DNA from: an uncultured Flavobacteriaceae bacterium
GTDB taxonomy: Bacteria > Bacteroidota > Bacteroidia > Flavobacteriales > Flavobacteriaceae
NCBI GenBank assembly: GCA_947311635.1
Contig: CAMZLD010000032.1
Location: 1 to 41,657, forward strand
DNA: 41,657 bases
Reading direction: 5' to 3'
In this document: piece after piece, positions 5,916 through 33,878 of the stretch
Layout: each line of letters starts with the position of its first letter
Position numbering within the stretch: position 1 is the first letter of the stretch
Position numbers and translations under genes: made by a program
Notes under the pieces: generated by a model
The model's database searches: none
The model's input: the letters and a program-made list of their open reading frames with translations, nothing else
Told to the model about the DNA's origin: nothing

Positions 5916-5960
5916 TTATAATCTAATTAACAATGTTTTTATTGCAATAACACAAAATGC

Positions 5961-6461: not shown

Positions 6462-6505
6462 GGTTTATACGTTTTGATTTAAGGATATAATATATTAATA
6501 GGCTG

Positions 6506-6513
6506 CAAAGTTA
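6506..6513 (-). promoter_or_regulatory. TAnnTTTG promoter box before lipoprotein gene
   Basis: The minus strand reads TAACTTTG, matching the Bacteroidota -7 consensus TAnnTTTG. It lies 45 nt upstream of the ATG at 6461, giving a predicted 5' untranslated region near 38 nt. No exact TTG is seen 19 bp upstream. Confidence 0.5.
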
Positions 6514-6545
6514 CATTTTTTTATTTTAGGAAAAACTTCATTGCT

Positions 6546-7721: not shown

Positions 7722-7757
7722 AATTTAAAGAGCTTAATTATGTTGTTTGTTTAAATA

Positions 7758-8125: not shown

Positions 8126-8197
8126 ATAAAGTAAGTTCCTTTTTTTAAACTTAATTTACTGTCCTTTTTTTTTGGTTTCATCAGCAAAACTATCCTC

Positions 8198-8220
8198 AAA
8201 CAATACAACAGTTATTGTTT
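8198..8220 (-). other. Stem-loop just after glycosyltransferase stop codon
   Basis: An inverted repeat has 8-bp arms (AAACAATA / TATTGTTT) and a 7-nt loop, 2 nt downstream of the stop codon at 8223-8225. There is no following T-tract on the minus strand, so it could slow decay or weakly end transcription but is not a classical terminator. The stem is AT-rich. Confidence 0.35.
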
Positions 8221-8222
8221 AT

Positions 8223-11763: not shown

Positions 11764-12992
11764 AGCTTTACCTTTGTTGTACTATCTACGTATGCAAAAA
11801 AACTATAGAAAAAAGAAAAAAACATAAGTCCAGAATAACGCTGAAACATTGATTCAAACAAGAACGAAACAAAGAGGATTATTGATAAGGATCGAATTAC
11901 ATAATGATACTCCCGTGATCTATTAAAAAACAGAACTCCCAAAGAAACTAACAACAATATAAACCCAATCATCCCAATTTGAATTGCTATAGTTAAAAAT
12001 TGATTATGCGAATTCAATTGAGCTCTTAATGGGTTTATATAATTTAACTCCTTGTATGTACTCATTAGCCTTAAGTCATGATCACCAACACCAACACCTA
12101 ACAATATGTTTTCTTTAATTATTTGAATGGATGCATTCCATGTTAATAAACGTGTATGAAAAGAATTTTTAGAAGTAGGATTTATGATAATTTCCTTCTC
12201 ATATATGTCGCCTATTATTTTGTTAAATCTGGGGTTAACAAAAATAACAGCAGACAGCAGTATTATTGAAATCAACAATACTAATCTTTTTTTTACCCCC
12301 CGTTGAGAAATTAAATAATACACATAAATCAAAGGTGTGATTAATAACGAAACTCTATTTGATATTTGAAATATGCCTATTAAAACAATTATTATAAAAA
12401 AAGTGTTAATTTTTTTATTTTTAATAGGCTGAAATAATAATAATACATATGAAAATAGTAAAAAAACAGCGTAATATACTGTTTGATGTATTGCTGAAAA
12501 GTATTTCCCAAAAAACAAATTACCTCCTTCACTCATAGACTGAAACAAGTTATGCCCTGGTTGTACAATTGCATGAAACCCTCCAGGATAAAATGTTGCC
12601 GCCCTATAAAATGCATATATGTTTAATATTAATATAGACATTACACAGCCAAGTACATAAGTATTAAGAATTCTCTTAATTTGAAATTCATTAAGGGATT
12701 TCTTTCTAAAATAAAAAATAATAGGAAATATCAACAAAGGGGTCTTTTGCGTTAAAAACTTTATATCAAACCGGGACGAATACAGTAATGAAAAAACTAA
12801 AAACAAATACATTAAAGCTGGTAATAAAATATTTTTAGAAATTTTAATATTCTTTAACTGTCCTGCCCTAAAACTCTCCAACAATAATACAAACATTAAC
12901 ACTGTTGTTGTTTTTTGTCCAAATGGAATTAAAAAAGAAAAAACAGCGAATAGTGTAATATTATATTTAGCTATAAAGATCCTCAACCTCAT
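11760..12992 (-). CDS. O-antigen ligase/polymerase (Wzy_C domain) membrane protein
   Basis: This 410-residue polytopic protein has an unmistakable Wzy_C (O-antigen ligase) region. TRLLTWNASIQIIKEN, LLGVGVGDHD and NSHNQFLTIAIQIG occur in order in the large periplasmic loop and the following helix (about 275-345). Members either polymerise lipid-linked repeats or ligate the chain to lipid A core or protein. It begins 2 bp after the TviC-like epimerase gene and overlaps wzx by 4 bp. With a second candidate polymerase at 9317-10528, one reading is that this one is the ligase; the reverse is equally possible from sequence alone. Confidence 0.82.
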   Translation of the reverse strand: MRLRIFIAKYNITLFAVFSFLIPFGQKTTTVLMFVLLLESFRAGQLKNIKISKNILLPALMYLFLVFSLLYSSRFDIKFLTQKTPLLIFPIIFYFRKKSLNEFQIKRILNTYVLGCVMSILILNIYAFYRAATFYPGGFHAIVQPGHNLFQSMSEGGNLFFGKYFSAIHQTVYYAVFLLFSYVLLLFQPIKNKKINTFFIIIVLIGIFQISNRVSLLITPLIYVYYLISQRGVKKRLVLLISIILLSAVIFVNPRFNKIIGDIYEKEIIINPTSKNSFHTRLLTWNASIQIIKENILLGVGVGDHDLRLMSTYKELNYINPLRAQLNSHNQFLTIAIQIGMIGFILLLVSLGVLFFNRSREYHYVIRSLSIILFVSFLFESMFQRYSGLMFFSFFYSFFAYVDSTTKVKL

Positions 12993-12994
12993 AA

Positions 12995-13999
12995 CTAACC
13001 CTCACAATACCATTTTACAACTTTTTCAATACCCTCTGTAAAAGAATATTTGGGCTGATACCCTATTAGTTTTTTTCCTTTAGATATGTCTGCCAATGAG
13101 TGTACTACATCTCCGGCTCTATTTGGACCGTGGTTTACTTTTGTTTCATTGACTGTAATACCCAGCGCAGTTAAACCTTCTTTTATTGCCTCTACCAAAT
13201 CATTTAAGTTGATGTTTTCTCCAAAAGCCACATTATACACTTGATTTACTGCTTTTGGATTGTCTGACAAAGCGGCTTTTATGTTAGCTTGCACAACGTT
13301 TTCAATAAAGGTAAAATCACGCGAATGGAATCCATCACCGTTTATGGTAATATCCTCTTTATTTAATAACTGACCGATAAACTTTGGTATTACCGCTGCA
13401 TACGCTCCATTAGGATCTTGACGTTGCCCAAACACATTAAAATAACGCAAGCCAATAGTTTCTAAACCGTAGGTTTTATAAAAAACATCGGCATATAATT
13501 CGTTTACCAATTTCGTAACCGCATACGGTGATAACGGTTTTCCTATTTCATCTTCCACTTTTGGCAACCCTGGATGATCTCCATATGTAGAAGAACTTGC
13601 GGCATATACCATACGTTTTACGGTGTCAGACTCATTTGCTGCTACTAACATATTCAAATGTCCAGAAACATTTACGGCGTTAGTAGTAATGGGGTCATTT
13701 ATAGATCTTGGCACTGAACCTAAGGCTGCTTGATGCAATACATAATCGACTCCCTTCATTGCGGTTTTACAGGTTACTATATCTCTAATATCGCCTTCAA
13801 TTAGTTCGCAACGGGAATTCTTTAAAAAACTTTCAATATTTTTTAAATGGCCTGTTGCAAAATTATCTAAAATCACGATTTTTTTAGCATCGTATTTCAA
13901 AAGATATTCGACCAAGTTAGATCCTATAAATCCTGCGCCACCTGTTACTAAAAAAGTAAATTTAGATAAATCTTTGGTATGATATGGTGTTTTAAACAT
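12995..13999 (-). CDS. tviC: UDP-N-acetylhexosamine(uronic acid) C4-epimerase, TviC/WbpP-like
   Basis: This 334-residue extended short-chain dehydrogenase has an NAD-binding GGAGFIG motif at 20-26, the catalytic SSST segment near 135-138 and Tyr159/Lys163 in SPYAVTK. The strings QAALGSVPRSINDP, SSTYGDHPGLPKVED and FNVFGQRQDPNGAYAAVIPK are the signature of WbpP (Pseudomonas) and TviC (Salmonella Vi antigen). These interconvert UDP-GlcNAc/UDP-GalNAc or their uronic acids. It follows the TviB-like dehydrogenase by 3 bp, the same order as in the Vi locus, so conversion of UDP-GlcNAcA to UDP-GalNAcA is the likely job. All catalytic residues are present. Confidence 0.92.
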   Translation of the reverse strand: MFKTPYHTKDLSKFTFLVTGGAGFIGSNLVEYLLKYDAKKIVILDNFATGHLKNIESFLKNSRCELIEGDIRDIVTCKTAMKGVDYVLHQAALGSVPRSINDPITTNAVNVSGHLNMLVAANESDTVKRMVYAASSSTYGDHPGLPKVEDEIGKPLSPYAVTKLVNELYADVFYKTYGLETIGLRYFNVFGQRQDPNGAYAAVIPKFIGQLLNKEDITINGDGFHSRDFTFIENVVQANIKAALSDNPKAVNQVYNVAFGENINLNDLVEAIKEGLTALGITVNETKVNHGPNRAGDVVHSLADISKGKKLIGYQPKYSFTEGIEKVVKWYCEG

Positions 14000-14002
14000 A
14001 AA

Positions 14003-15289
14003 TTACAATCTTTTAGTTACTTCATTTTGTGGCAATGTTCCTTTAACATCATACAATACTCCATTTTTGTTTTTTAATGCGGCAAAATCTAAATCTTTAA
14101 ATTTATCATGTGCTACGGTGTGCACAATGGCATCATATTTCTTACCCTTGATATCTGCTACTGTACCTATTCCGTATTCATACTGTACTTCGTCGGAATT
14201 TGCCCAAGGATCATACACCTCAACATCCATGTGAAAGTCTTTTAATTGACGATAAACATCTATAGCTTTGGTGTTTCTAATATCTGGACAATTTTCTTTA
14301 AAGGTAATCCCCAACATCAATACTTTTGCATTTTTTACTGAAATTTCATTATGCACCATTAATTTCAGAACTTCTGTTGCTACATATTCGCCCATAGAAT
14401 CATTTAAGCGTCTTCCTGCTAAAATAATTTCTGGATAATAACCTACTTCTTGTGCTTTTTGAGCTAAATAATATGGATCTACACCTATACAATGCCCCCC
14501 AACCAACCCTGGTTTAAAAGGTAAAAAATTCCATTTTGAAGATGCTGCTTCCAAAACCGCATGTGTATCAATATCTAATTTATTAAATATTTTTGCCAAT
14601 TCATTTACAAAAGCAATGTTAATATCACGTTGTGCGTTTTCAATTACTTTTGCTGCTTCTGCAACTTTTAATGAAGGTGCTAAATGCGTACCTGCCGTAA
14701 TAATTGAATTGTATAAAGCATCAACTAATAACCCAATTTCTGGAGTAGAACCTGATGTTACTTTTTTAATTTTTGTTACTGTATGCGTTTTATCTCCTGG
14801 ATTGATACGCTCTGGAGAATATCCACAGAAAAAATCTATATTGAATTTTAATCCACTTACTTTTTCTAAAACGGGAACACAATCGTCTTCCGTTACTCCT
14901 GGATATACTGTAGATTCATAAATGACAACATCTCCTTTTTTTAATACCCCACCAATTGTTTCTGATGCTTTAATTAAAGGGGTTAAAATTGGTCTATTGT
15001 TTTTATCTACAGGGGTTGGAACAGTTACAATATAAACGTTACAGTCTTCTAAATCTGATAATTGATAACTCAATTTTATTCCGTTATCTTTTAAATTTAA
15101 AACCGATTGCAAGTTTTCATCCGAAACTTCTAAGGTTGCATCATGACCTGCATTTAAAGCCTTTATTCTGTTTTGATTGATATCAAAACCTATTACTTTA
15201 TATTTACTTGCAAATTCTACGGCTAATGGCAAACCTACGTACCCTAGCCCAATAACGGCAATTTTTTTACTATTTTTTTCTATACTCAT
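14003..15289 (-). CDS. tviB: UDP-N-acetylglucosamine 6-dehydrogenase, TviB/WbpO-like
   Basis: This 428-residue nucleotide-sugar dehydrogenase starts with KIAVIGLGYVGLPLA (Rossmann NAD site, residues 9-23). It continues with VPTPVD near 90, YESTVYPG, GYSPERINPGD, and the catalytic Cys267 in VGGHCIGVDPYYL, ending in a UDP-binding domain with TFKENCPDIRNTK. Similarity to Vi-antigen TviB is high over the whole length. It oxidises the C6 alcohol of UDP-GlcNAc (or UDP-GalNAc) in two NAD-dependent steps to the uronic acid. The product would feed both the TviC-like epimerase next to it and WbpB at 19642-20610. Its start overlaps wzz by 20 bp. Confidence 0.93.
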   Translation of the reverse strand: MSIEKNSKKIAVIGLGYVGLPLAVEFASKYKVIGFDINQNRIKALNAGHDATLEVSDENLQSVLNLKDNGIKLSYQLSDLEDCNVYIVTVPTPVDKNNRPILTPLIKASETIGGVLKKGDVVIYESTVYPGVTEDDCVPVLEKVSGLKFNIDFFCGYSPERINPGDKTHTVTKIKKVTSGSTPEIGLLVDALYNSIITAGTHLAPSLKVAEAAKVIENAQRDINIAFVNELAKIFNKLDIDTHAVLEAASSKWNFLPFKPGLVGGHCIGVDPYYLAQKAQEVGYYPEIILAGRRLNDSMGEYVATEVLKLMVHNEISVKNAKVLMLGITFKENCPDIRNTKAIDVYRQLKDFHMDVEVYDPWANSDEVQYEYGIGTVADIKGKKYDAIVHTVAHDKFKDLDFAALKNKNGVLYDVKGTLPQNEVTKRL

Positions 15290-16322
15290 TTTCTCGCTTA
15301 TAATTTGTAAGATAAGTATTTAAATTCGATAAGAGCAGTATTAAAAGAATTGTACCTACTACAACTAGTGGTAGCATACCTTTATATGTTTTAAAAACAG
15401 GAATTTCTACTTTTGTTCCCTTTTGAGGAAAATCAGTTAAAACGTTTATAATTTCACCACTTTTTTCTTTACTTAGAATGACTTTTGAAAGATCTTCAGT
15501 TAAATTTTTAGAAATACCAAATAATTTTAATTCTAGGTTTTCAGAATTTTTTTTATCTGACAAATCAATAGTTGTATTTGGGACATTTTTTTTAAGACTA
15601 TTTAAAGCATATTTTTTAAGAAAACTCCTTAAGCTATCAACTTCTTTTTGAGATTTTTTAATGTTTTTTTCTTTTTCTTCAATTGATTTTATCCTTAAGT
15701 CTTTAGCGAGAATTAACATTTTATTCTGCTTTATTTTATTAAAAATAGTATCTATTGATAGTTTTAAATTCTGATCAGTTGATTTAACTCTTATTACAAA
15801 CCTTTTAGAAAAAAGTGTGTAAATCTCTTTGTTAAATTCGCTAAAATTTACATTCTTTCTTGTTGTTGAATCTAGTTTTTTAATAATCCTATCAAAATAT
15901 AAAAGCTTATCTATTTTACTATCATATGATGCTAAATTTAAATTTGTTATAGTGGCGGCTTCTTCAGGAGTAATTACAAGCTGTGTTGATAATCTTAAAG
16001 TATCTTGATTATCAATACTACTCCTAATATCTTCTAAATATTCATTTATTTGATGTTCTGACCCATATTGTGGTTCTATAATAGCGTCATATTTATAGAT
16101 TACAGAGCTAATAGAATCTAAAAACAGCCCTAATAAAAATGCTGCCATCATAGGTAATACAATAAGTTTAATATTCTTTCTTAAAAAGAGTAGTATTAGT
16201 ATAAAAAAATTAAACAACTTTATAGAAAAGTTTTTAATTCCAATAAAAAATTTCTTAATTCCTTTTTTAAAATACTCCATTAATTGAAATAAATCTATTT
16301 CTTCTTCTGGACTTGCTCCCAT
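15270..16322 (-). CDS. wzz: Wzz-like chain-length determinant (polysaccharide copolymerase)
   Basis: This 350-residue inner-membrane protein has the PCP layout: a cytoplasmic N-terminus (EEEIDLFQLMEYFKKG), a first membrane helix near 50-70, a long helical and charged periplasmic domain (about 75-310) with a coiled coil around 210-245, and a second helix near 318-340. It lacks a tyrosine-kinase domain, so it is a Wzz/PCP-1-like protein that sets the modal length of Wzy products. I chose the ATG at 16322; the longer frame starts with a TTG at 16340 that is itself part of a promoter box. It overlaps tviB by 20 bp. Confidence 0.82.
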   Translation of the reverse strand: MGASPEEEIDLFQLMEYFKKGIKKFFIGIKNFSIKLFNFFILILLFLRKNIKLIVLPMMAAFLLGLFLDSISSVIYKYDAIIEPQYGSEHQINEYLEDIRSSIDNQDTLRLSTQLVITPEEAATITNLNLASYDSKIDKLLYFDRIIKKLDSTTRKNVNFSEFNKEIYTLFSKRFVIRVKSTDQNLKLSIDTIFNKIKQNKMLILAKDLRIKSIEEKEKNIKKSQKEVDSLRSFLKKYALNSLKKNVPNTTIDLSDKKNSENLELKLFGISKNLTEDLSKVILSKEKSGEIINVLTDFPQKGTKVEIPVFKTYKGMLPLVVVGTILLILLLSNLNTYLTNYKRENEYRKK

Positions 16323-16337
16323 GTTTTCTTTTTTTTG

Positions 16338-16345
16338 CAAAAGTA
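16338..16345 (-). promoter_or_regulatory. TAnnTTTG promoter box before wzz
   Basis: The minus strand reads TACTTTTG, a match to TAnnTTTG. The start of transcription would fall about 10 nt before the ATG at 16322. It would let wzz and the downstream assembly genes be expressed separately from the wbpB-rml block. No TTG at the -33 spacing was found. Confidence 0.45.
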
Positions 16346-16367
16346 TAAATTATTATTGATATAATTC

Positions 16368-17225
16368 TTAACTATGCTGGTTTTTAACTACCTGTTTTAA
16401 ACTGTCTTGCCAAGCAAATATGCTAATTGAAAAATTCTCCTTTATTTTGTTTTTGTTAAGCACACTGTTTTTTGGTCTTTTTACTAATGTTGGATATTGG
16501 CTTGTTTTGATTGGTTCTGTTTTAATTTTTAGCTTCTTTTCTTTAAAAATTGCTTTTGCAAAATCATACCAACTAGCTTCGCCTTGATTACTATAATGGT
16601 AAACTCCAAATTCATTTTTTGTACTGTTGATAATGTGTAAAATAGCATTGGCTAAATCTAACGCATAGGTAGGTGTGCCTATTTGATCCTCGACAACTCG
16701 TATTTCTTTTTTTGTTTTTGCTAGTTGTAGCATTGTTTTCATAAAATTACTACCGTGTTGAGAATATAGCCAAGATGTTCTAATTATATAATGTTTTTTG
16801 CAATTTTTTTCTACTTCTTTTTCTCCTAACAATTTTGTTTTACCATAAACACTTTGTGGATTTGGTGTGTCTTCTTCGGTATAAGGTGTTTTTTTATTTC
16901 CGTCGAAAACAAAATCTGTAGATATATGTATTAGGGTTGTATTGTGATGGTTACAAGATTTGGCTATATTTTTAACACCAATCACATTTATTTTATGTGC
17001 TACTTCTTGCTGTGTTTCAGCTTTGTCTACATTTGTATATGCTGCGCAGTTTATACAATAATCTATGTTGTTCTTCTCAAAAAATGCTACAACATTTAAT
17101 GAATTTGAAATGTCTAAAGAATCTTTATTGGTAAAAATGAATTTAAATTGTGGGTGATTTGTAGCAATTTCTTTTAAACTCAAACCTAACTGTCCGTTAC
17201 TTCCTGTGACTAGTATTGTTTTCAT
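16368..17225 (-). CDS. rmlD: dTDP-4-dehydrorhamnose reductase
   Basis: This 285-residue short-chain dehydrogenase/reductase of the RmlD type has the nucleotide-binding GSNGQLG at 8-14, STDFVFDG near 102-109 and catalytic Tyr127/Lys131 in SVYGKTK. It reduces dTDP-4-keto-L-rhamnose to dTDP-L-rhamnose with NAD(P)H, the last step of the pathway whose other enzymes are encoded immediately upstream. It starts directly after rmlC with no spacer. Length is normal for the family, with all motifs intact. Confidence 0.95.
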   Translation of the reverse strand: MKTILVTGSNGQLGLSLKEIATNHPQFKFIFTNKDSLDISNSLNVVAFFEKNNIDYCINCAAYTNVDKAETQQEVAHKINVIGVKNIAKSCNHHNTTLIHISTDFVFDGNKKTPYTEEDTPNPQSVYGKTKLLGEKEVEKNCKKHYIIRTSWLYSQHGSNFMKTMLQLAKTKKEIRVVEDQIGTPTYALDLANAILHIINSTKNEFGVYHYSNQGEASWYDFAKAIFKEKKLKIKTEPIKTSQYPTLVKRPKNSVLNKNKIKENFSISIFAWQDSLKQVVKNQHS

Positions 17226-17768
17226 TTATTGTAACTCTATTACCTTTTTTAATTGTAAGTCTTTTTCTGAAAGAATAAAAGTTTCTTTTGGTAGCATCCA
17301 ATTTATTGCTAATGTTTCGTCATTATATATAATACCTTCTTCTGATTCTTTATGGTAATAATTATCGCATTTATAAAAAAAAGTAACTTGGTCTGTCAAA
17401 GCTATAAAACCATGTGCAAATCCTCTTGGAATAAATAATTGTTTTTTATTTTCAGAAGAAAGTCTTACAGAAACGTGCTGTAAATAAGTTGGTGAGTCTT
17501 TTCTAAAGTCAACCGCAACATCTAACACTTCTCCTTGAAGCACGGTTACTAATTTTGCTTGTGCATGCTTCCCTTTTTGAAAGTGTAATCCTCTTAACAC
17601 ACCTTTTGTAGAAAAAGACTGATTGTCTTGTACAAAATTTACCTCTTTATTTATTAACTTAGTAAATGTTTTGTGGTTAAAACTTTCAAAAAAACAACCT
17701 CTGCTGTCTTTAAAAATTGAAGGCTCTAATATAAAGCAACCTTTTAATTTTGTTTCTGTTGCTTTCAT
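17226..17768 (-). CDS. rmlC: dTDP-4-dehydrorhamnose 3,5-epimerase
   Basis: This 180-residue cupin of the RmlC family has the catalytic base His62 in GVLRGLHFQ, Tyr132 in [10 protein letters not shown], and the IPRGFAHGF segment near 113-121. It epimerises C3 and C5 of dTDP-4-keto-6-deoxy-D-glucose on the way to dTDP-L-rhamnose. It overlaps rmlA by 4 bp, and rmlD begins at the next base after its stop. The size is that of stand-alone RmlC enzymes, with no fusion. Confidence 0.95.
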
Positions 17769-18622
17769 AAAATACTTAATAAATGTTTACCATAGCCACT
17801 TTTGGTTAATGGTGCTGCTAGTTTTAGTAGTTGCTCTTTTGTGATAAAACCTTTTTTATAAGCAACTTCTTCTATTGCTCCTATTTTAAGTCCTTGACGT
17901 TCTTCTATAACTTGTACAAATTGTGATGCTTGCATTAAAGAATTAAATGTGCCTGTGTCTAACCAAGCGGTTCCTTTATCTAAAATACTTACACTTAGAT
18001 TTCCTTGTTGAAGATAGGTTTTGTTAATGTCTGTAATTTCTAATTCGCCTCTGGCACTTGGTTTTATGCTGGCTGCAATTTCTACTACTGAATTGTCGTA
18101 AAAATAAATACCTGGCACTGCATAATTTGATTTTGGGTGTGTTGGTTTTTCTTCTATTGAAATGGCTTTTCCTTCGGTATTAAATTCAACAACTCCATAG
18201 CGTTCTGGATCATTTACATGATAGGCATACACAATGCCTCCGTTGGGGTTGTTATTTGCTTCTAACAACTTTGAAAGTCCTGTTCCGTAAAAAATATTGT
18301 CTCCTAAAATTAGGGCAACTTTTTCTTTTCCTATAAATTCTTTTCCAATAATAAAGGCTTCTGCCAATCCTTTTGGTTGTTTTTGAACAGCATATTGAAA
18401 ATTACAGCCTAATTGTTTTCCGGTACCTAAAAGTTTTTCGAATAACGGTAGGTCTTGTGGTGTTGAGATGATTAAAATATCTCTAATACCTGCCCACATT
18501 AAGGTAGAAAGAGGGTAATAAATCATGGGTTTATCATAAATAGGCATCAATTGTTTGCTTACCGCTAAGGTAAGTGGATGTAGCCTTGTACCTGATCCTC
18601 CTGCTAAAATGATACCTTTCAT
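17765..18622 (-). CDS. rmlA: Glucose-1-phosphate thymidylyltransferase
   Basis: This 285-residue nucleotidyltransferase has the signature [11 protein letters not shown] at 8-18, [27 protein letters not shown] near 106-115 and the later [20 protein letters not shown]. It condenses glucose-1-phosphate with dTTP to give dTDP-glucose, the entry to dTDP-rhamnose. Length and motifs are those of the RmlA short form. It starts 1 bp after rmlB and overlaps rmlC by 4 bp, so the four rml genes form one translationally coupled unit. Confidence 0.95.
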
Positions 18623-18623
18623 G

Positions 18624-19640
18624 CTATCTTGTTTTATACTTGTTTAAATACCATTGAATGGTTTTTAAAATTCCTGTTTCAAAATTTTCTACTGCTTTCC
18701 AGCCTAATTCTTTTTCTATTTTTGTGGCGTCTATAGCATATCTAAAATCGTGCCCTGGTCTGTCTGATACAAAGGTAATTAACTCTTTATACGACTTTTC
18801 TTTTGGTACTTGCTTGTCTAATAGCTCACAAATAGTGTGTACAATATACAAATTATCTCTTTCGTTGCTACCTCCAATATTATAGGTTTCTCCTGCTTTT
18901 CCTTTGTGATAGACTAATTCTATTCCTTTACAATGATCTAAAACATACAACCAATCTCTAATGTTTTTACCGTCTCCATAAATGGGAATAGGTTCTGCAT
19001 TGATGGCTTTTCTTATAATGGTTGGTATTAATTTTTCATCGTGTTGTTTTGGTCCGTAATTGTTAGAGCAGTTTGTGGTGATTACATTCATTCCGTAGGT
19101 ATGAAAATAACTTCTAACAATAAAGTCTGAAGATGCTTTTGATGCACTGTATGGACTATTTGGAGCGTATGGTGTGCTTTCTAAAAACAAGCCTGATTCG
19201 CCTAATGTGCCATAAACTTCATCTGTTGATATATGGTGAAACCTGCTGTTTTCGTAGCCTTTTTTGCAATCGTTTGGACCATTCATCCAATGTTTCTTTG
19301 CAACATCTAATAGATTAAATGTTCCAAATATGTTGGTTTGTATAAAAGCGTCTGGATTTTTAATAGAATTGTCTACGTGTGATTCTGCAGCAAAATGGAT
19401 AACGCCTTTAAAATCGTACTTTTTAAATAAGTCTTCTATTAATTTTCTATTACAAATATCGCCTTTAATAAAAGTGTAGCGGTCATTGTTTTGTATGTCT
19501 TCTAAATTACTAATGTCTCCTGCATAGGTAAGTTTGTCAAGATTTACAATGTGTATATTTTGATTTTTTTCTAAAAAGTAGGGAATAAAGTTTGCGCCTA
19601 TAAAACCTGCACCTCCTGTTACCAATACATTTTTATTCAT
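18624..19640 (-). CDS. rmlB: dTDP-glucose 4,6-dehydratase
   Basis: This 338-residue extended SDR enzyme has the NAD motif GGAGFIG at 9-15, the catalytic Thr139-Asp140-Glu141 triad in [12 protein letters not shown], and Tyr164/Lys168 in [24 protein letters not shown] and [12 protein letters not shown] are family hallmarks of RmlB. It converts dTDP-glucose to dTDP-4-keto-6-deoxyglucose. It follows wbpB by 1 bp. The gene order B-A-C-D is a common arrangement in polysaccharide loci. Confidence 0.95.
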
Positions 19641-19641
19641 C

Positions 19642-22277
<2,636 letters not shown>

Positions 22278-25688: not shown

Positions 25689-28139
25689 TTATATCTTTAT
25701 TTTTGCGCCAAAAGTAAAATTTCTTCCTGGTGAACTTATGCCAGAGGCAAATTCTTTGTAATGTATATCAAATACGTTTTTTACAGAAAACTGTAGCTTT
25801 ATTTTGCTGTTAATTTTATAATTTGCAAAATAGTTAATCGTCATCCAGCTTGGACTTCCGAAGTAATTATTACTGTTATCTAAAGGTGTTTCTTCTAAAT
25901 TATCAATGCCTTCAGAAATATTATATGCTGATGCCTTTTTATGCGCATTAAAGATCATAGAGGCACTTGTTTCAAACTTTTTCTTAACAAAGGTCAAACC
26001 AATATTTCCAAATAATGGAGGAATGGAAGAGAGTGGTTCTTTAGTATCATAGGTTTTACCGTTGGTGTATGTTATAGACCCGTTGGTTTTCCATTGCTTT
26101 GTAAAGCGTCCTTTAAAACTTAATGTGCTCCCAACAATATATGCTTGCCCTTTGTTAACATTGGCAACAATATTGGCTGTTTCGCCATCATATAATATGG
26201 TTGTATTGTTATTTAATACAAAGGCTTCTCTTATGATATAATTATTGAGTAATGTGTAATACATATTAAAACCTATATAAAATTTTTTGTGGTTAAAATA
26301 TTTTAAAGTTCCTAATTCTGCACTGTAAGCGTATTCTGGTCGTAAGTAAATGTTTGGGACAGTTACGTTGCCATTTTTCTCTCTAATTTTTCCAACATCA
26401 TCAATGTTTGGCGATCTAAATCCAGAAGCTAAATTGGCATTGATTTGCAAATTGACAGTTGGTTTATAAATATATCCAAATGTAGCGGTTACAGCAGAAT
26501 TATTGAGCGAAATATTTGTAGCTGGCAAAGTAATAAAGCTGTTGTCTACCCATTTTGCTTTTAAATAAGTGTCTGTAAATCGAATACCTGTATTTAACGT
26601 TTGTTTTTCTGCTATATCTTGTCGGTAATTAGCATATAGCGATGCGCTGGTGTATGTGCTGCCTCCATCTGGATAACGCGATTGTACCGAAAATGTATTT
26701 GAAAACCCAAGAATCTCATTACCTAAAACGTCTAAGGTTTTACCTTCGGAAATAGATTGCACATCATTATGTGTAACTTCAAATCCATATGATAAAATGC
26801 GTTTGCTAGCTAAGGGTACTAAAAAATCACCATTCAAACTAAAAACGTCTACGCTTTCATTTCTATAAGACCTGTCTAAACTTGTAAATTTTCTTTGTAT
26901 TCTAGATTCTTGAACGTTTTGATATGCTGCAGTTATCGTTCCTTTAGTTATCCATTTTTTTTCGGGTTTAATGTGTAGTTGAGAAGAAAATAACAACCTT
27001 TTTTGAGGTCCGTAATACCATTCAGCAAACTTTAAGTTATTTGAGTTAGTTTTTTCATTTAACTTATCAAAACGATTGATATTTGTAGACTCAGAATATT
27101 GAAAATTTAAGTTTAAATCCGCTTTATGATGCAACGGAATAAGTACACGTTGTAAAAAATCTAATTGCGAATAGCCAGTGTTTGGCAACCTATTTGGTTG
27201 TGTATTAATGGTTGCGTTTGGATTATAATAGGTGTTTGTATTGTTAGAATATTGAAATACTTTTCCCCAGTTATTAAAAGTGTTTTTTCTATTTTTCCCA
27301 ATGGTTAAATCTCCAAATTTTGCGTGCGAAAAACTTGTATATGTAGCAAATTTTTGAGTACCATAAGCTACACCTATTGTTGAGGTTGTTGCTTTATTAA
27401 CCGTACTGAATGTTGAATGTAACATTGTCTTTAATGTAGGTTCTAAAGTTGTTTTTGGCTTTTTGGTGTAATAATGTATTACGCCGCCTAAGGCATCTGA
27501 TCCGTAAAGCACAGACGATGGCCCATAAACCACCTCGGTTTTTTCTAAACTACTTGGAGATACAGTAATGGCATTTTGTAAATGTCCTTTTCTATAAATA
27601 GCATTGTTTAAACGCACGCCATCTACAACCAATAATACTCTATTTGCTTCCATTCCTCTTAATACAGGGCTTCCTCCTCCAAATTGTGTTTTCTGAACTT
27701 TAATACTTGGTATGGTAGCAAGAAAATCTGCTGAAGTTTGTGGCATAGCATTTTCTATTTCTTTTGCAGAAGTTACAATAATTTGCTCTGCTAAACGCTT
27801 ACGGTGTTCAGCATTTTTTGAAGCCGAAAAAATAAGGACATCGTCTATTTTTTCTGTTTTTTTAACCAATTTTATGGTATAATGATGCTTTGGTAAATCT
27901 CGCTTTAAAACTTCAAACTCAATATATTCTTCTAAAAAAAAAGTAAGAATATCGTTGTCTTTAAATGGATTTGTTGTTGCCTTACCTTGACTGTTTGTGT
28001 ATACTGTTTGGTTAAAAAAATCATTCGTAATAGCTACATTTTTTAACGGACTATTTGTTTCTTTATCTAACACTGTTACGTCTTGTGCTTGCGATAAAAA
28101 AGTAAGAAATAAGAAATATAAAAATATAATTTTATTCAT
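25689..28139 (-). CDS. TonB-dependent outer-membrane receptor
   Basis: This 816-residue outer-membrane transporter has a signal peptide ending near residue 18 (LSQAQ), a carboxypeptidase-regulatory-like beta-sandwich (about 19-92), a plug domain (about 110-230) and a 22-strand-type barrel ending FGAKIKI with the terminal hydrophobic residue. The plug has GGGSPVLRGMEANRVLLVVDGVRLNNAIYR and VVYGPSSVLYGSDALGGVIHYYTK (separate motifs), a pattern of haem/haemoglobin and colicin-type receptors in Bacteroidota. No SusD partner is adjacent, so it is not a SusCD polysaccharide system; the substrate is unproven. It lies 2 bp after recO. Confidence 0.9.
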   Translation of the reverse strand: MNKIIFLYFLFLTFLSQAQDVTVLDKETNSPLKNVAITNDFFNQTVYTNSQGKATTNPFKDNDILTFFLEEYIEFEVLKRDLPKHHYTIKLVKKTEKIDDVLIFSASKNAEHRKRLAEQIIVTSAKEIENAMPQTSADFLATIPSIKVQKTQFGGGSPVLRGMEANRVLLVVDGVRLNNAIYRKGHLQNAITVSPSSLEKTEVVYGPSSVLYGSDALGGVIHYYTKKPKTTLEPTLKTMLHSTFSTVNKATTSTIGVAYGTQKFATYTSFSHAKFGDLTIGKNRKNTFNNWGKVFQYSNNTNTYYNPNATINTQPNRLPNTGYSQLDFLQRVLIPLHHKADLNLNFQYSESTNINRFDKLNEKTNSNNLKFAEWYYGPQKRLLFSSQLHIKPEKKWITKGTITAAYQNVQESRIQRKFTSLDRSYRNESVDVFSLNGDFLVPLASKRILSYGFEVTHNDVQSISEGKTLDVLGNEILGFSNTFSVQSRYPDGGSTYTSASLYANYRQDIAEKQTLNTGIRFTDTYLKAKWVDNSFITLPATNISLNNSAVTATFGYIYKPTVNLQINANLASGFRSPNIDDVGKIREKNGNVTVPNIYLRPEYAYSAELGTLKYFNHKKFYIGFNMYYTLLNNYIIREAFVLNNNTTILYDGETANIVANVNKGQAYIVGSTLSFKGRFTKQWKTNGSITYTNGKTYDTKEPLSSIPPLFGNIGLTFVKKKFETSASMIFNAHKKASAYNISEGIDNLEETPLDNSNNYFGSPSWMTINYFANYKINSKIKLQFSVKNVFDIHYKEFASGISSPGRNFTFGAKIKI

Positions 28140-28141
28140 TC

Positions 28142-28861
28142 TTAACTAAATATTGTTTTTAAAACGGCTAGTGACTTTGGTTTTCTTAACTCTGGCAAAT
28201 GTAATTCTAAATATTGAATTAAAACATGCAAGATTTCTTGTCTATCTAATGCGCTAAACTGTACCGCTTCTAGGGCATCAAAACTAATGCCAAAGAGTTT
28301 TTTAAATTGAAAAACTGTATTGCCTTGACAATGTGATTGTAATGGTTTACTTTCTGAAAAACGGCCATTTAATAACTCAAAATAAGTGTCCTTTTTTTTG
28401 GGAATTTCTGGATAAAAACCAATAAACTTGGTTAGATTTAGTAAAAATAACAAATGAAAATTAGATGTATGCTTGTTTGTGTCTAGCCAAACAAATGCGG
28501 TTTCTAAATAAGAAAAAAGAGCCTTGTTTTGCTCTTTCTCTTTTATAATACTAGAAAGCATTTCAGATAAAAAAAGTACAATGGTTTGTTTTTTTATGTC
28601 TTGATAAATATTTGTATAATGGTACGCAACACTAGCTTCTTTTATGCTATTTAAAGCACCTTTGTTATTGTGATTTGCTACAATTTCTAGCTGATTTAGT
28701 GGTTGAAAATAGGCTGGTTTTAACTTTCCTTTTTTTGATTTTAAAACACCTCTTAATAGATAGCTTTTTAAGCCTTCAATTTCTGTGTAGCATTTAACAA
28801 TAAGATGCGCATCGCCATATTTAAGGGTACTTAAGACAATCGCTTTTGTAGCTGTAATCAT
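28142..28861 (-). CDS. recO: DNA repair protein RecO
   Basis: This 239-residue RecO has an N-terminal OB fold (ITATKAIVLSTLKYGDAHLIVKCYT) and a helical C-terminal domain with FLLNLTKFIGFYP. It works with RecR to load RecA at gaps during recombination repair. A four-cysteine zinc site, present in some RecO proteins, is not evident; only isolated cysteines are seen. It is wedged between porZ (2 bp) and the TonB receptor (2 bp). As I recall, recO next to porZ is a frequent order in flavobacteria. Confidence 0.9.
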   Translation of the reverse strand: MITATKAIVLSTLKYGDAHLIVKCYTEIEGLKSYLLRGVLKSKKGKLKPAYFQPLNQLEIVANHNNKGALNSIKEASVAYHYTNIYQDIKKQTIVLFLSEMLSSIIKEKEQNKALFSYLETAFVWLDTNKHTSNFHLLFLLNLTKFIGFYPEIPKKKDTYFELLNGRFSESKPLQSHCQGNTVFQFKKLFGISFDALEAVQFSALDRQEILHVLIQYLELHLPELRKPKSLAVLKTIFS

Positions 28862-28863
28862 TT

Positions 28864-31152
28864 TTAATTGATAATCGCTATTTTGGTCATTGCTGTTTCT
28901 GAATTTTCATTTGCTGTAAGTAGAACAATATACACGCCAGACACAACTTTACGACCTGCTAGGTTTCTTTTATTCCAAACTACTTTTCCGCCGTTTACTT
29001 CTTGTCCTTCTACTACATTTGTTTCAAAAACTAAATTTCCGGAGGCATCTAGTATTTTTACATTGGTTCCTTTAGGAAGGTGTGTACCATTTCTTCCGTC
29101 AATAGTTACAAATTCATGGTTGCTTCTTACGGGGTTTGGATAGGCATATACTTCTTCTAATTCGTCACTAAATGGTGCTACATTGCTATTGTAAGCTACA
29201 ATACCTTTATCGGTTCCGAAGTATACAACTCCTGTGCTTTCATCTACTTGTATTTTTAATATAGTATTAGATGGTAATGGTGAATTGTCTTTGTTAAAAA
29301 TAGCAAGTGTTTCTCTACCAGAAGGGTTGGTGTAGAGTACCCCTCCGTTGTCTGACCCAAACCATTTATTATTTGCACCATCTACTTCTATAGTATTAAT
29401 TACTTGGTCTCCTAATAATTTCTTCGGTATTCCATCGTCTAAAATAATGATTGGATTTGCATCATAAATATCTGCATCAAAAACTCCGCTAGCATTGTTA
29501 TAAACTACCATGCCTTTTTTGGTGCCTATCCAAATTCTATTTGATTTATCAATGGCTATTGTTCTAACATTTTCATGAGGCAATGAACCTTTTGTTGGTT
29601 CTGTAGTTAGTGCTCTTTTACGGTCTCCATTTTCATTGTAAATTAATATTCCGTCTCTTCTTGAGCCTATCCAAACAGTGTTACTTCTATCAACTTCTAT
29701 TTCATTTAACCCTAGACTATTATTTGACATAATAGCGCTTAAGTTAAAACTAGACCAAGTGCCATTTGGTGCTCTTTTTTGTAAGTGTTGTTCGGGTAAT
29801 GGATTTGCAACCCACATATTTCCTTGTTGATCAAATGTGGTACTTGTAACTAATTCAAAAACACCAAAAGAAGTTTCTATTCCAGAATTTGTTTGATCCC
29901 ATATTGTTGTAATTATATTATCTTCTACAACAGCAATGCCGTCAAAATACGAACTTAAGTATACTTTATTTTCATTTTCTGGATCTATGGTTATATCTAC
30001 TAAATCTCTTGCTCTAAATGCTGGATTATAAGGGGTGTTAATCCAAACACCATTGTTATAATGACTAAAACCTAATTTTTTACCTTGCACATTATAAGAT
30101 TGATTGTAGCCGCCGTATACAATCCATAAATGATTGTTTTTAGCGGTGATAGAAAATAATTTATTAGACGATGGTCCTTGTGGGTGTCTTTCGGTAAAAT
30201 CTTGAACATTTGAAAAAGAAGCTTGTAAAATTCCGAAGTTTTTAGTTGCTAAATAAACCCTGTTATCTTCTACAAACGCAGTATTTAATTCAAAAAAATA
30301 ATCTGAATTACTGTCAGCAACAACATCAAAAAGTAGTGTTAATGATGTGTCAAAAATGAGAGCTCTTCTATTTAAAGAAACTGTTAAATAATCTTGTGTC
30401 GCTTTTAAATCTTTAATCGTACTTGGTAAAAATCGTCTTGTTTGTAATGTGTTTGAACTTGTAATTGAATATAATTTGGTGGTTTTTGAAGTATAAACTT
30501 CATTATTAAATGTAAGTATTGCGCTAAAATTTCCTGAGAAATAATGCGCCCAGTTATTAAAATCTATAAGAAAAGGGTCGTTTACATTTGCTACAAAAAT
30601 ACCGGTTTCTGTCGCTGCATAAATGTTGTTTTGAAAAACAACGGTTTGATTTACTACCACATTTGAAGACGCTGCTCCTATAAAAAAAGTGTCTCCAAAA
30701 GTTAGGTTTTCAATATTATATTCTACAATTCCGAAGGAGGTTGATAAGTAAAGCTTACTTCCGAAGGCTGCTATATGGTTAATTGTTTTATTGCCCGCTA
30801 TATTAAAATTTGTAATGTCACTTGAAATTGTAATATTACCTTGATTATCAATAACTTCTATCAATCCACTTTCGTAACCGATAACAAGTTTTTGATAGGT
30901 ATCGCTATAAAAAATACTTGTTGTTGTTTCGCCAGAGAGTCCATTAACGGAAGACATTTTTGTGATTTTATTGGTAACCGTGTTGTATGTAAATACCGCA
31001 TTGTCTACAACTGCATATATTAAATCATCTACTTTTATGAAATCTTTTACATTGTTATACGAATAGAAATCTTCCCAATTTTGGCTATAATCTGTTTGAG
31101 AAAAGGACAAAGAGGCCCAAAAAGAAAGTAAAATTAATAGTTTTTTTTTCAT
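28864..31152 (-). CDS. porZ: PorZ-like type IX secretion beta-propeller protein
   Basis: This 762-residue exported protein has a signal peptide ending near SFSQ. About 650 residues of beta-propeller blades follow, with the recurrent two-component-regulator-propeller motif (NTVWIGSRRDGIL, RIWIGTKKGMVVYN, KWFGSDNGGVLY, VYFGTDKGIVAYN). It ends in a type A C-terminal domain (VYAYPNPVRSNHEF, KILDASGNLVFE, SGVYIVLLTANENSETAMTKIAI). Two propellers plus a sorting-like domain is the plan of P. gingivalis PorZ, which sits on the cell surface, binds anionic LPS and presents it to the PorU sortase. No other secretion genes are in the window. It follows an AlgJ-like gene by 22 bp. Confidence 0.88.
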   Translation of the reverse strand: MKKKLLILLSFWASLSFSQTDYSQNWEDFYSYNNVKDFIKVDDLIYAVVDNAVFTYNTVTNKITKMSSVNGLSGETTTSIFYSDTYQKLVIGYESGLIEVIDNQGNITISSDITNFNIAGNKTINHIAAFGSKLYLSTSFGIVEYNIENLTFGDTFFIGAASSNVVVNQTVVFQNNIYAATETGIFVANVNDPFLIDFNNWAHYFSGNFSAILTFNNEVYTSKTTKLYSITSSNTLQTRRFLPSTIKDLKATQDYLTVSLNRRALIFDTSLTLLFDVVADSNSDYFFELNTAFVEDNRVYLATKNFGILQASFSNVQDFTERHPQGPSSNKLFSITAKNNHLWIVYGGYNQSYNVQGKKLGFSHYNNGVWINTPYNPAFRARDLVDITIDPENENKVYLSSYFDGIAVVEDNIITTIWDQTNSGIETSFGVFELVTSTTFDQQGNMWVANPLPEQHLQKRAPNGTWSSFNLSAIMSNNSLGLNEIEVDRSNTVWIGSRRDGILIYNENGDRKRALTTEPTKGSLPHENVRTIAIDKSNRIWIGTKKGMVVYNNASGVFDADIYDANPIIILDDGIPKKLLGDQVINTIEVDGANNKWFGSDNGGVLYTNPSGRETLAIFNKDNSPLPSNTILKIQVDESTGVVYFGTDKGIVAYNSNVAPFSDELEEVYAYPNPVRSNHEFVTIDGRNGTHLPKGTNVKILDASGNLVFETNVVEGQEVNGGKVVWNKRNLAGRKVVSGVYIVLLTANENSETAMTKIAIIN

Positions 31153-31174
31153 TTTAGTGGTCTTTATTCTTTTT

Positions 31175-32287
31175 TTACTTATTAATTCTTTCTATATAAC
31201 GTTCTACTACAATATAAAGTACAATGTCTGGTTTTTCTTTTTCTATTAGCGCTTTGTTAAAAGTATAATCCCAAATATAAACACATTCGTTAAAAGTTTC
31301 GTTGAGATACTTTCTTAATGCTTGCGTAAAAGAGTCTCTAAAAATAAGTATTTTTAATTTTTTAGTAGTGTTTTTATATCGATATTCATAGATATCTGAA
31401 TCTCTATTATAGCCATAAGGTATTTTTAATTTTTTAGGTGCCTCAACGACATTGCTTTTACCTTTTTTCTTTAAGATTATTCTTTTTTCTTTTATTCCAT
31501 TATTTAACATTCCGTTTAAGTCACCTACAACATAAACAATGGTGTCTTTTTCAACATCATAACTGTGTATTTTTTGCTTTGAAAGTGTTGGATTGTTTTT
31601 CTCTAGTTCTTCTATTAATTTTTGATATCCTAATAAGGCTCCAAAATCATTCCAATGTGTATCGTGTTGATAAAATAGTTTTATGGAGTCTTTTTGTGGT
31701 ATTAAATATGTTTTTAAGTCAATTAAATCAAAATTTATTTTCGTTTTTAAATACTGTTTAAGTGTTGTAATCTTTGTTTTAGAAGATCCTTTTTTTAAAG
31801 GTAACTCATCCAAATAGATGGTGTGTTTATTAGGAGCAACAGCTATATAGTATTGGATGTTTTTACGCGCTAACCATTCTTTTTGAGATTTAATTTTTTG
31901 TGTAAGTTGTTGTAATTCTGTTTTTGAAAAATTAACATATCCTAAAGATTCTGCTAATACATTACTATCTGCATCTCCTAAAAACAACCACCCTTTTTTT
32001 CCATTTATGACTTTTGTTGGTAGAGGGTCTTCTTGTAATACATTTTGCATAAAATCACGGTAAATTTCAAAAAGGGTGTTTCTTAGTCCAAAATGGTTTT
32101 TGTAGTAATTTCTTAAATTAATAGTAAACAATCTTGGTTGATTGATTGTTAGTTTAGGAAAACTTTTTATCGTATTACTCTCTGCTTTTAGCATTGTTTT
32201 TTCAACTCCAAAAACATGAACTATTGTAGGTATTAATAGCATTAGTATAAATGCAACAATCAATATTTTATGTTCGTGTTTTTTCAT
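31175..32287 (-). CDS. AlgJ/AlgX-like SGNH-fold O-acetylation protein
   Basis: This 370-residue protein has one N-terminal membrane anchor (about 8-27) and an extracytoplasmic domain like alginate AlgJ/AlgX and other MBOAT partner proteins. The catalytic triad elements are visible: Asp209 and His211 in YQHDTHWNDFG, and Ser319 in IFRDSF near the C-terminus. NGKKGWLFLGDADSN near 95-109 is another family block. It would take an acyl group from the MBOAT protein and place it on an exported glycan. Its start overlaps the stop of the MBOAT gene by one base (TGATG type). The glycan target is unknown; no alginate genes are present. Confidence 0.87.
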   Translation of the reverse strand: MKKHEHKILIVAFILMLLIPTIVHVFGVEKTMLKAESNTIKSFPKLTINQPRLFTINLRNYYKNHFGLRNTLFEIYRDFMQNVLQEDPLPTKVINGKKGWLFLGDADSNVLAESLGYVNFSKTELQQLTQKIKSQKEWLARKNIQYYIAVAPNKHTIYLDELPLKKGSSKTKITTLKQYLKTKINFDLIDLKTYLIPQKDSIKLFYQHDTHWNDFGALLGYQKLIEELEKNNPTLSKQKIHSYDVEKDTIVYVVGDLNGMLNNGIKEKRIILKKKGKSNVVEAPKKLKIPYGYNRDSDIYEYRYKNTTKKLKILIFRDSFTQALRKYLNETFNECVYIWDYTFNKALIEKEKPDIVLYIVVERYIERINK

Positions 32288-33690
32288 CAGAACCTGAAAT
32301 AAATAAAAGGGTTATATGAGTCTACAGCAATATACATAATTGATAAACCAAATAGTATTAATAAAAAAATAATTTTTAGTGATCCGTATTTTTCTATATG
32401 ATATTTTGTGCTAAGTACTTTGTAAATTTTAGTAGAAAACAACATCGCCAAAATAAATGCAACAAGACCTTCTGTTCTTAAATAAAAACTTGGTATTTGT
32501 TCTGTTTCTGAAATTGAAAAAGTAAACATTTTTTTAAGATATGCTATAGCTTCGGGTAAATGATATGCTTTAAAAAACACCCAAGCGATTACTACAACTA
32601 ATAAAGTGTAGATTCTTTGAAAAAAAACACCCACTTTTTTTAATATTTTTTCTAGGCCTATTTTTTCTAATATTATAAAAAAACCATGAATCATTCCCCA
32701 AACAACAAAATTCCAACTTGCTCCGTGCCAAAGTCCTGTAATAAAAAAAACTATAATTAAATTCAAGTAGGTTCTTTTAGCCCCTTTTCTATTTCCTCCT
32801 AAAGGAATATATAAATAGTCTTTAAACCACGTTGATAAAGAAATGTGCCAACGTTTCCAAAACTCTCGAACAGATTTTGAAACATATGGGTAATTAAAAT
32901 TTTCTAACAAATCCAAACCAAACATTTTACCCAAGCCTATTGCCATGTCAGAATATCCAGAAAAATCAAAATAAATTTGAAGACTATATGCAATAACTCC
33001 AAACCAAGCAAACCCTGTGGAAAGTTGCTCTACTGGTAAATTAAATGCGCCTTCTGCTATAAAAGCAAGATTATTAGCAATTAACATTTTTTTTGCTAAA
33101 CCTAAAATAAAACGCTCTACTCCTTGTGCAAATTGTTGAGTAGAAAAACTTCTGTTTTGTAATTGTTTTTCAATGTCTACATAGCGTACTATTGGACCCG
33201 CAACTAATTGTGGAAACATTGTAACGTAGGTGCCGAAATTTATAATATTACGATTCGCTTTTACACTTCCTCTATAAACATCAATGGTATATGACATGGT
33301 TTGAAAAGTGAAAAAACTAATTCCTAAAGGAAGTGTTATGTTAGGCATTTCGTTAAAGAATGATGTTTGAACCCCAAAATAATGTAAAAATGCGTGATAG
33401 TTTTCAAATGCAAATGCTGCATATTTAAAATAAGCTAAAATTGATACATTAAATACCAAAGAAAAATACAGTCCTAACTTCCGTTTTCCAGATTCTATAA
33501 GTATCGCCGCTAAATAATCAACAGCAATTGAAGCTATTAACAGCAATACTAATTTTTGCTCTCCGTAAGTATAAAAAGCCAAACTAGCACCAAATAAAAC
33601 TGTGTTTTTTAGTTTTTTAGGAGCTAAATAATACGTAAATAACAGTATTGGAAGAAAAAAAAATAAAAATATTGCGCTACTAAAAAGCAT
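32287..33690 (-). CDS. MBOAT-family membrane O-acyltransferase, AlgI-like
   Basis: This 467-residue protein has about 11 membrane segments. Family blocks include PLGISFFTFQTMSYTIDVYRG, FFDFSGYSDMAIGLGKMFG-type text near 240-258, FWKRWHISLSTWFKDYLYIP with His282, and the invariant His322 in TGLWHGASWNF. These match AlgI, which carries acetyl groups across the cytoplasmic membrane for polysaccharide O-acetylation. A promoter box lies 25 nt before the ATG, and the AlgJ/AlgX-like partner is coupled downstream, making a complete two-component acylation module at the head of the run that continues into porZ, recO and the receptor gene. Confidence 0.92.
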   Translation of the reverse strand: MLFSSAIFLFFFLPILLFTYYLAPKKLKNTVLFGASLAFYTYGEQKLVLLLIASIAVDYLAAILIESGKRKLGLYFSLVFNVSILAYFKYAAFAFENYHAFLHYFGVQTSFFNEMPNITLPLGISFFTFQTMSYTIDVYRGSVKANRNIINFGTYVTMFPQLVAGPIVRYVDIEKQLQNRSFSTQQFAQGVERFILGLAKKMLIANNLAFIAEGAFNLPVEQLSTGFAWFGVIAYSLQIYFDFSGYSDMAIGLGKMFGLDLLENFNYPYVSKSVREFWKRWHISLSTWFKDYLYIPLGGNRKGAKRTYLNLIIVFFITGLWHGASWNFVVWGMIHGFFIILEKIGLEKILKKVGVFFQRIYTLLVVVIAWVFFKAYHLPEAIAYLKKMFTFSISETEQIPSFYLRTEGLVAFILAMLFSTKIYKVLSTKYHIEKYGSLKIIFLLILFGLSIMYIAVDSYNPFIYFRF

Positions 33691-33714
33691 CTAAAAACAT
33701 TAATGATAAAAACA

Positions 33715-33722
33715 CAAATATA
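33715..33722 (-). promoter_or_regulatory. TAnnTTTG promoter box before the MBOAT gene
   Basis: The minus strand reads TATATTTG 25 nt before the ATG at 33690. It would drive the MBOAT, AlgJ-like, porZ, recO and receptor run. It is divergent from the box at 33754-33761. Confidence 0.5.
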
Positions 33723-33753
33723 AATTATAATAACTGTAAGTAATAAAAAATGT

Positions 33754-33761
33754 TATTTTTG
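33754..33761 (+). promoter_or_regulatory. TAnnTTTG promoter box before the small ORF and CYTH gene
   Basis: The plus strand reads TATTTTTG. It lies inside an inverted repeat (33752-33772, arms GTTATTTT and AAAATAAC, 5-nt spacer) that also covers the predicted transcription start, so the repeat may be an operator or the top of a leader hairpin. The 29-codon ORF begins about 10 nt after the predicted start. Confidence 0.45.
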
Positions 33762-33778
33762 TTTAAAATAACGTAAAG

Positions 33779-33868
33779 ATGGCTTCCTTTTATAGATCGT
33801 TGATTACCTACAAGCCTATTGTTTCTTTTTATAATTTTTTTAAAAGAAAAGTGAAAGACCTGCTTTAA
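33779..33868 (+). CDS. Possible 29-residue leader or microprotein ORF
   Basis: A short ATG frame encodes MASFYRSLITYKPIVSFYNF followed by FKRKVKDLL, a basic, aromatic, potentially amphipathic peptide. It begins just after a promoter box and ends 10 bp before the ATG of the CYTH gene, so it would be the first reading frame on that transcript. I recognise no family. It could be a real microprotein, a translational leader, or chance; the length is too short for codon statistics to decide. Confidence 0.35.
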   Translation: MASFYRSLITYKPIVSFYNFFKRKVKDLL

Positions 33869-33878
33869 TAAAAAATAT

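Follow-up and report, generated by a model that had tools for sequence, protein, structure and literature searches.

An MBOAT–SGNH acyltransferase pair beside the type IX secretion gene porZ in Flavobacteriaceae, and unrelated acyltransferases occupying that locus in other genomes

The 41,657-nucleotide contig analysed here (the window; CAMZLD010000032.1 of assembly GCA_947311635.1), from an uncultured Flavobacteriaceae bacterium, carries genes for a membrane-bound O-acyltransferase (MBOAT) and a partner acyltransferase of the SGNH type directly upstream of porZ, which encodes a component of the attachment complex of the type IX secretion system (T9SS). The pair recurs beside porZ in other genera of the family, and in further genomes acyltransferases of the AT3 (Acyl_transf_3) family, belonging to two lineages, stand at the same locus, which is a new finding. 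AT3 and MBOAT are unrelated families, both serving the acylation of extracytoplasmic glycans. In our estimation, the chances are slightly better than even that the pair forms an O-acylation module dedicated to T9SS and acting on the glycan that PorZ hands to the sortase PorU. The three genes concerned are the following (below, G numbers denote genomes and L numbers loci; G000 is the window's genome, a bin that totals 1.78 Mb in fragments and is 80% complete).

32287..33690, minus strand: MBOAT membrane-bound O-acyltransferase, 467 amino acids (PF03062, 1.2e-34)
31175..32287, minus strand: AlgJ/AlgX/PatB1-like SGNH acyltransferase, 370 amino acids, with an N-terminal membrane helix (PF16822 ALGX, 2.7e-20)
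28864..31152, minus strand: PorZ, T9SS attachment-complex protein, 762 amino acids (NF052228; PF21544, 6e-33)

The Acyltransferase Pair and PorZ

An earlier note on this DNA, made from the sequence alone, had described a complete two-protein acylation system of the MBOAT/AlgJ-like type directly upstream of porZ. The open reading frames (ORFs) lie exactly where it placed them, on one strand, and completeness is borne out by the PF03062 and PF16822 matches together with the retained catalytic residues and FXYXXF tail. In the MBOAT, the conserved His lies within the motif TGLWHGASW; this residue, H322, is invariant across the alignment of profile A1, the WHG motif is present in 35/35 MBOAT rows, and the profile matches DltB structures at 5e-35. 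The protein ends in the hexapeptide FIYFRF, and either FIYFRF or FIYFKF closes all 20 porZ-linked rows, a tail that fits the FXYXXF acyl-shuttle hexapeptide of PatA, whose Tyr is described as the acetyl carrier (PMC12148441).

In the SGNH partner, D209, H211, and S319 are invariant in 22/22 aligned sequences and, judging from family membership, probably constitute the catalytic triad. Its AlphaFold model (pLDDT 83) retrieved 11 chains with Foldseek at E<=0.001, exclusively from PatB1, AlgJ, a DHHW protein, and AlgX, the top matches being PatB1 (1e-12), AlgJ (9e-11), and AlgX (2e-7). A profile search of solved sequences agrees with this result (PatB1, 3e-22; AlgJ, 5e-12). The assignment of the pair, whose activity is predicted, to the MBOAT–SGNH acyltransferase class is well supported and close to certain.

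The assignment of PorZ is based on the T9SS_PorZ equivalog NF052228 (738 bits against a cut-off of 260, with model positions 1-757 of 757 covered) and on a match to structure 5m11 (antigen PG93) at 2e-40. The PorZ equivalog is thus common to the window and the PorU-PorV-PorQ-PorZ attachment complex of Porphyromonas gingivalis, in which, in the portions of the literature searched, no acyltransferase is described as a component. In that species, PorZ is reported to bind anionic lipopolysaccharide (A-LPS) and to present it to PorU (PMC8545088). The window's genome also encodes a PorU-size Peptidase_C25 protein (350.6 bits, in a 1277-amino-acid frame, G000:C115). A PorU-type C25 peptidase was detected in 33/33 genomes with a porZ-linked MBOAT or AT3 enzyme, the window's included, and in 0/7 genomes that have a sister MBOAT in a polysaccharide cluster and lack porZ. 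This distribution agrees with a T9SS role for the module, without proving it.

Conservation of the Pair at the porZ Locus

In a sample of one genome per genus, the SGNH partner was present in 14/149 genomes, and the pair abuts porZ in 9 of those 14. A profile search of 397 genomes of the family detected the partner in 35, and in 21 of these, spread over 14 genera, the pair sits at the porZ operon; profile A2, used for the SGNH search, was built mostly from porZ-linked rows and is biased toward finding more of them, and the initial MBOAT search was independent of it. The gene order is therefore not unique to the window's genome, so that the refuting condition set by the earlier note on this point fails, and the arrangement is more than chance, since it recurs in other genera. 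The remaining 14 genomes carry solo pairs, pairs in polysaccharide clusters, or, in one case, a weak match (G291). Carriage may differ within a genus, as in g41, where G261 has the pair and G040 lacks it. In a sample of the order, 13/196 genomes match the SGNH profile, the window's own among them, and the two strongest matches outside the family (G502 and G402) lie away from porZ. Among 80 loci listed from named genomes, at least 18 combine porZ with an SGNH gene, although L104, one of these, holds just a fragment of porZ at a contig end; the carriers listed comprise, among others, Bizionia, Mesoflavibacter, Lacinutrix, Olleya, Winogradskyella litoriviva, and Wenyingzhuangia heitensis, whose layout is that of the window.

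The orientation of the pair varies across the 21 porZ-linked genomes. It is upstream and co-directional with porZ in five (G000, G002, G388, G223, and G380), divergent in 15, with 56-89 nt between the start codons, and in one (G311) located past the receptor gene, at the opposite end of the porZ operon. Location on the same strand as porZ, as the earlier note described it, holds for these five genomes, the window's included, and not for the other 16; therefore, co-transcription is not the general basis of the linkage.

Some observations concern related loci. Sister MBOAT/SGNH pairs (L053, L056, L058, L063, and L088-L094) belong to polysaccharide clusters that also contain Wzy, NeuB, Rml, or epimerase genes, and several of their SGNH proteins, at about 570 amino acids, are longer than the porZ-linked ones. 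In G115 (L033/L095), a 1492-amino-acid gene occupies the upstream side of porZ, and neither recO nor the receptor gene stands beside porZ, unlike in the congeneric G311.

AT3 Acyltransferases and Other Genes at the porZ Locus

An AT3 acyltransferase lies between gdh and porZ in G044, G036, G320, G314, and G212. In genus g127, an AT3 gene was found between porZ and recO in G126, G627, G639, G648, and G637, which are all five of the strong AT3 matches among 101 genomes, while two of 18 genomes with weak matches (G616 and G624) hold a different AT3 gene just after recO, in convergent orientation; for this genus, 21 of the 98 PorZ-matching genomes were read as loci (G126 and 20 others), partly picked for their AT3 matches. 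In the family sample, six of the seven genomes with strong matches to the G044 enzyme have it at porZ, G133 being the exception. The AT3 tree places 10/11 members of one clade (97/92) at porZ, five upstream of it and five between porZ and recO, and the G616 and G624 enzymes in a separate lineage. As judged from these trees and loci, the AT3 enzymes reached the porZ locus separately from the MBOAT pair. Their carriage also varies within genera, being found in G314 and not G122 of g123, and in G320 and not G131 of g132.

Of the 149 one-per-genus genomes, 97 gave usable porZ neighbourhoods, the other 52 having no strong PorZ match, a short contig, or a fragment (G065, G088, and G111). Acyltransferases occupy 12/193 of the slots immediately beside porZ compared with 9/785 other ORFs of the same neighbourhoods, and each of these nine is the pair's second member, MBOAT or SGNH, at a distance of two genes from porZ. 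The excess in the slots gives a Fisher p of 1.4e-4 even with those nine counted, on rows that are related by descent and not independent.

Genes of other kinds are also found at this flank. Polytopic membrane proteins are encoded in L221 (8277-9599, overlapping porZ by 4 nt), in L249 (8292-9569, between porZ and recO), and in L068 (4988-6457, divergent from porZ), and none of them matches Pfam, at limits of E 10 for L068 and L221 and of E 1 for L249. From a resemblance of their starts they could be GT-C glycosyltransferases, but this identification was set aside, given the lack of Pfam matches and, for the L221 protein, of any meaningful match among solved structures. In G590, porZ and recO are separated by a radical SAM gene (L250, 8296-9324), and further entrants comprise GldD (L233), OmpA-like, and metabolic genes.

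History of the Linkage and Alternative Explanations

All 20 porZ-linked rows of the MBOAT tree, which covers 20 of the 21 genomes because the MBOAT of G380 lies beyond a contig end, belong to one clade (97/94) despite their changes of orientation and side. The next branches are the solo pairs of G113, G155, and G502, followed by the polysaccharide-cluster pairs and the solo pair of G402; the MBOAT of G027 is split into two ORFs in L053, and its 355-amino-acid piece alone entered the tree. The PorZ tree is broadly congruent with the MBOAT tree and requires at least seven changes for the presence or absence of the pair. Since the two trees broadly agree, the link between the MBOAT and porZ is old and vertical, with repeated loss. 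A recent horizontal gain in the window's lineage was set aside, because the trees broadly agree and the porZ-linked MBOATs form a single clade, which makes loss the simpler account.

Several observations weigh against a module dedicated to T9SS. Acyltransferases are absent from porZ in 85/97 of the genera examined and are therefore not needed for T9SS. The five nearest PorZ relatives of the window (G112, G025, G145, G118, and G130; 56-59% identity) have no pair at porZ, and searching the one-per-genus sample for SGNH partners yielded no match in them. The MBOAT linkage has a single origin and vertical inheritance, and the adjacencies of gdh with porZ and of porZ with recO are equally stable with no obvious functional sense, so that conserved synteny alone is weak evidence. 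MBOAT distances track those of PorZ (r 0.75) no better than those of RecO (0.74), with a partial correlation of 0.32, and a co-evolution of MBOAT and PorZ stronger than the species signal was accordingly rejected, the distance matrices showing no coupling beyond that common with RecO. Of the nearest sister MBOATs, some are solo and others belong to polysaccharide clusters, with porZ missing from part of their genomes, one member of the AT3 clade (G133) is away from porZ, and a divergent-type SGNH protein outside the 22-sequence set (G029, L054) has Asn at the position of the triad Asp (209).

In an alternative explanation, the pair O-acetylates an ordinary surface polysaccharide, such as an O-antigen, capsule, or exopolysaccharide, and owes its position to inherited synteny with no role in anchoring. 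The sister pairs in Wzy/NeuB/Rml clusters, the single origin of the porZ-linked clade, the equal conservation of neutral neighbours such as gdh, and the anionic-polysaccharide cluster with TviB/TviC-like enzymes within the window itself (about 4.5-22 kb) are all in line with this explanation. However, the linkage to porZ outlasted both a change of orientation and a relocation to the operon's opposite end, and AT3 enzymes arrived at the same locus separately; overall, we regard a role confined to ordinary polysaccharide as rather unlikely. The distinction is also not a sharp one: should O-antigen LPS be what cargo is attached to, as is reported for P. gingivalis (PMC13086638), a modified O-antigen would itself be the anchor, and the two explanations overlap. 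The unrelated entrants listed above (the polytopic proteins of L068, L221, and L249, the radical SAM gene, GldD, OmpA-like, and metabolic genes) would be expected if the porZ flank were a permissive insertion site gathering accessory genes, in particular for membrane enzymes, but acyltransferases are over-represented in its slots relative to the rest of the same neighbourhoods and represent two superfamilies with three or more lineages between them, which makes this explanation improbable. A peptidoglycan O-acetyltransferase of the PatA/PatB type, although it would combine the same two families and the same FXYXXF mechanism, is very improbable: by profile and by fold, the best solved matches of the SGNH protein are AlgJ and Bacillus PatB1, the latter an enzyme that modifies secondary cell wall polysaccharide, and the pair occurs patchily and in linkage with a gene for outer-membrane secretion. 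The Gram-negative PatB structure was not among the 11 Foldseek matches at E<=0.001, its presence in the library being unchecked.

Comparison with Known Acylation Systems

The PatA1/PatA2-PatB1 system of the Bacillus cereus group likewise combines MBOAT and SGNH proteins, and PatB1 is the best profile and fold match of the window's SGNH protein. According to a review (PMC7759979), PatA1/PatA2 and PatB1 acylate the protein-anchoring polysaccharide; the loss of PatA1 and PatA2 affects surface-protein retention, the patA1 patA2 deletion abolishing that of some proteins, and binding of Bacillus surface proteins in vitro is independent of the acetyl group. That system differs in being Gram-positive, with non-covalent anchoring to a cell wall polymer, whereas the pair described here is Gram-negative and stands beside a sortase-complex gene. 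Alginate O-acetylation by AlgI-AlgJ/AlgX also relies on an MBOAT and a membrane-anchored SGNH protein of PF16822, the latter resembling the window's protein in fold (AlgJ, 9e-11), but no alginate genes surround the window's pair, whose neighbours are porZ, recO, a TonB receptor, and CYTH. The Gram-negative PatA-PatB system shares the MBOAT–SGNH composition and the C-terminal FXYXXF acetyl-Tyr shuttle (PMC12148441); it differs in that the window's SGNH protein has its best solved matches in PatB1 and AlgJ, and a peptidoglycan substrate is not indicated. The AT3 surface-glycan acyltransferases belong to an unrelated superfamily and share the porZ locus in other genomes, not in the window.

Organization and Transcription of the Locus

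The remaining features of the porZ run in the window are the following.

28142..28861, minus strand: recO, conserved porZ neighbour (TIGR00613, 1e-20)
25689..28139, minus strand: TonB-dependent receptor, which ends the tight run (PF00593/PF07715)
33691..33878, no strand: intergenic region of 188 nt, flanked by the MBOAT and CYTH genes in divergent orientation; probable promoter region of the operon

The gaps are -1 nt between the MBOAT and SGNH genes, 22 nt between SGNH and porZ, and 2 nt on either side of recO, and no terminator-like site was found on the minus strand between the start of the MBOAT gene and that of porZ, including the 22-nt gap. The five genes from MBOAT through SGNH, porZ, and recO to the receptor probably share one transcript. 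The shared promoter that the earlier note had invoked is not borne out by promoter patterns. A TAnnTTTG box (TATATTTG, 33722-33715, minus strand) lies 24 nt ahead of the MBOAT start, but boxes of this type are not above chance in the AT-rich window (81 found, 88 expected). More generally, patterns of the sigma-70 type and of what we take to be the Bacteroidota promoter consensus occur at or below chance in the window and give no transcription signal. RecO adjoins PorZ in nearly all loci surveyed, with the TonB receptor after recO in most; for the window's receptor (25689-28139), the best-scoring models are haem/haemoglobin receptors, under their cut-offs.

A polysaccharide cluster (4498-22277) lies 3.4 kb past the end of the porZ run. 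It contains Rml (dTDP-rhamnose) genes, a TviB/TviC-like UDP-GlcNAc dehydrogenase and epimerase, Wzx, two Wzy-like proteins, glycosyltransferases, and two hexapeptide-repeat transferases and, from this content, would produce an anionic glycan.

Proposed Role and Implications

In the mechanism proposed for a T9SS-dedicated module, the Tyr in the C-terminal FIYFRF tail of the MBOAT would receive an acyl group (probably acetyl, with acetyl-CoA as the donor), which the enzyme would move through the inner membrane. Its SGNH partner, membrane-anchored and facing the periplasm, would accept the group on Ser319 and transfer it to a periplasmic glycan, most likely an LPS-type polysaccharide or its linker. 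PorZ would then bring the acylated glycan to PorU for attachment to secreted cargo, where acylation may influence anchoring. The step would be optional, often lost, and performed elsewhere by AT3-type enzymes at the same locus. The evidence presented here covers the gene content, the catalytic residues, the predicted fold, the conserved linkage to porZ, and the separate placement of AT3; from it we infer the activity, the acyl donor, acetyl rather than another acyl group, the anchor glycan as the substrate, and the effect on anchoring.

Precedent for the acylation of an anchor glycan is provided by the Bacillus PatA1/PatA2-PatB1 system and by the anchor linker of P. gingivalis, which is reported to bear a C4H4O3 group, with no enzyme assigned to it in the accessible portions of the two sources (PMC7468200, PMC13086638). 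The earlier note had considered acylation of the anchor glycan not to be described. With respect to porZ this holds, as no paper linking it to an acyltransferase was found, judged by the titles and abstract openings of mainly open-access papers; with respect to the glycan it does not fully hold, given the published C4H4O3 group.

The interpretation put forward in that note is, overall, partly supported, and it is widened by the AT3 enzymes. The retention of the porZ pairing in relatives, or its replacement by unrelated acyltransferases, suggests that the anchor sugar is acylated. To our knowledge, the chemistry of type IX anchor glycans is known for few oral species only. The porZ-side acyltransferases are candidate genes for studies of anchor acylation and of its possible control over PorZ-mediated delivery or PorU-mediated attachment, and Bizionia, Mesoflavibacter, Olleya, and Wenyingzhuangia offer culturable hosts for such questions. 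For the Flavobacteriaceae, a tentative and broader proposal, to which we give somewhat less than an even chance, is that the sugar tying type IX cargo to the outer membrane undergoes a dedicated and exchangeable decoration step, served at porZ by two unrelated acyltransferase superfamilies (MBOAT–SGNH and AT3, the latter with two or more lineages) and perhaps by other membrane enzymes. The acyl substituents of the anchor would then differ between close relatives, and PorZ and PorU may prefer the acylated form.

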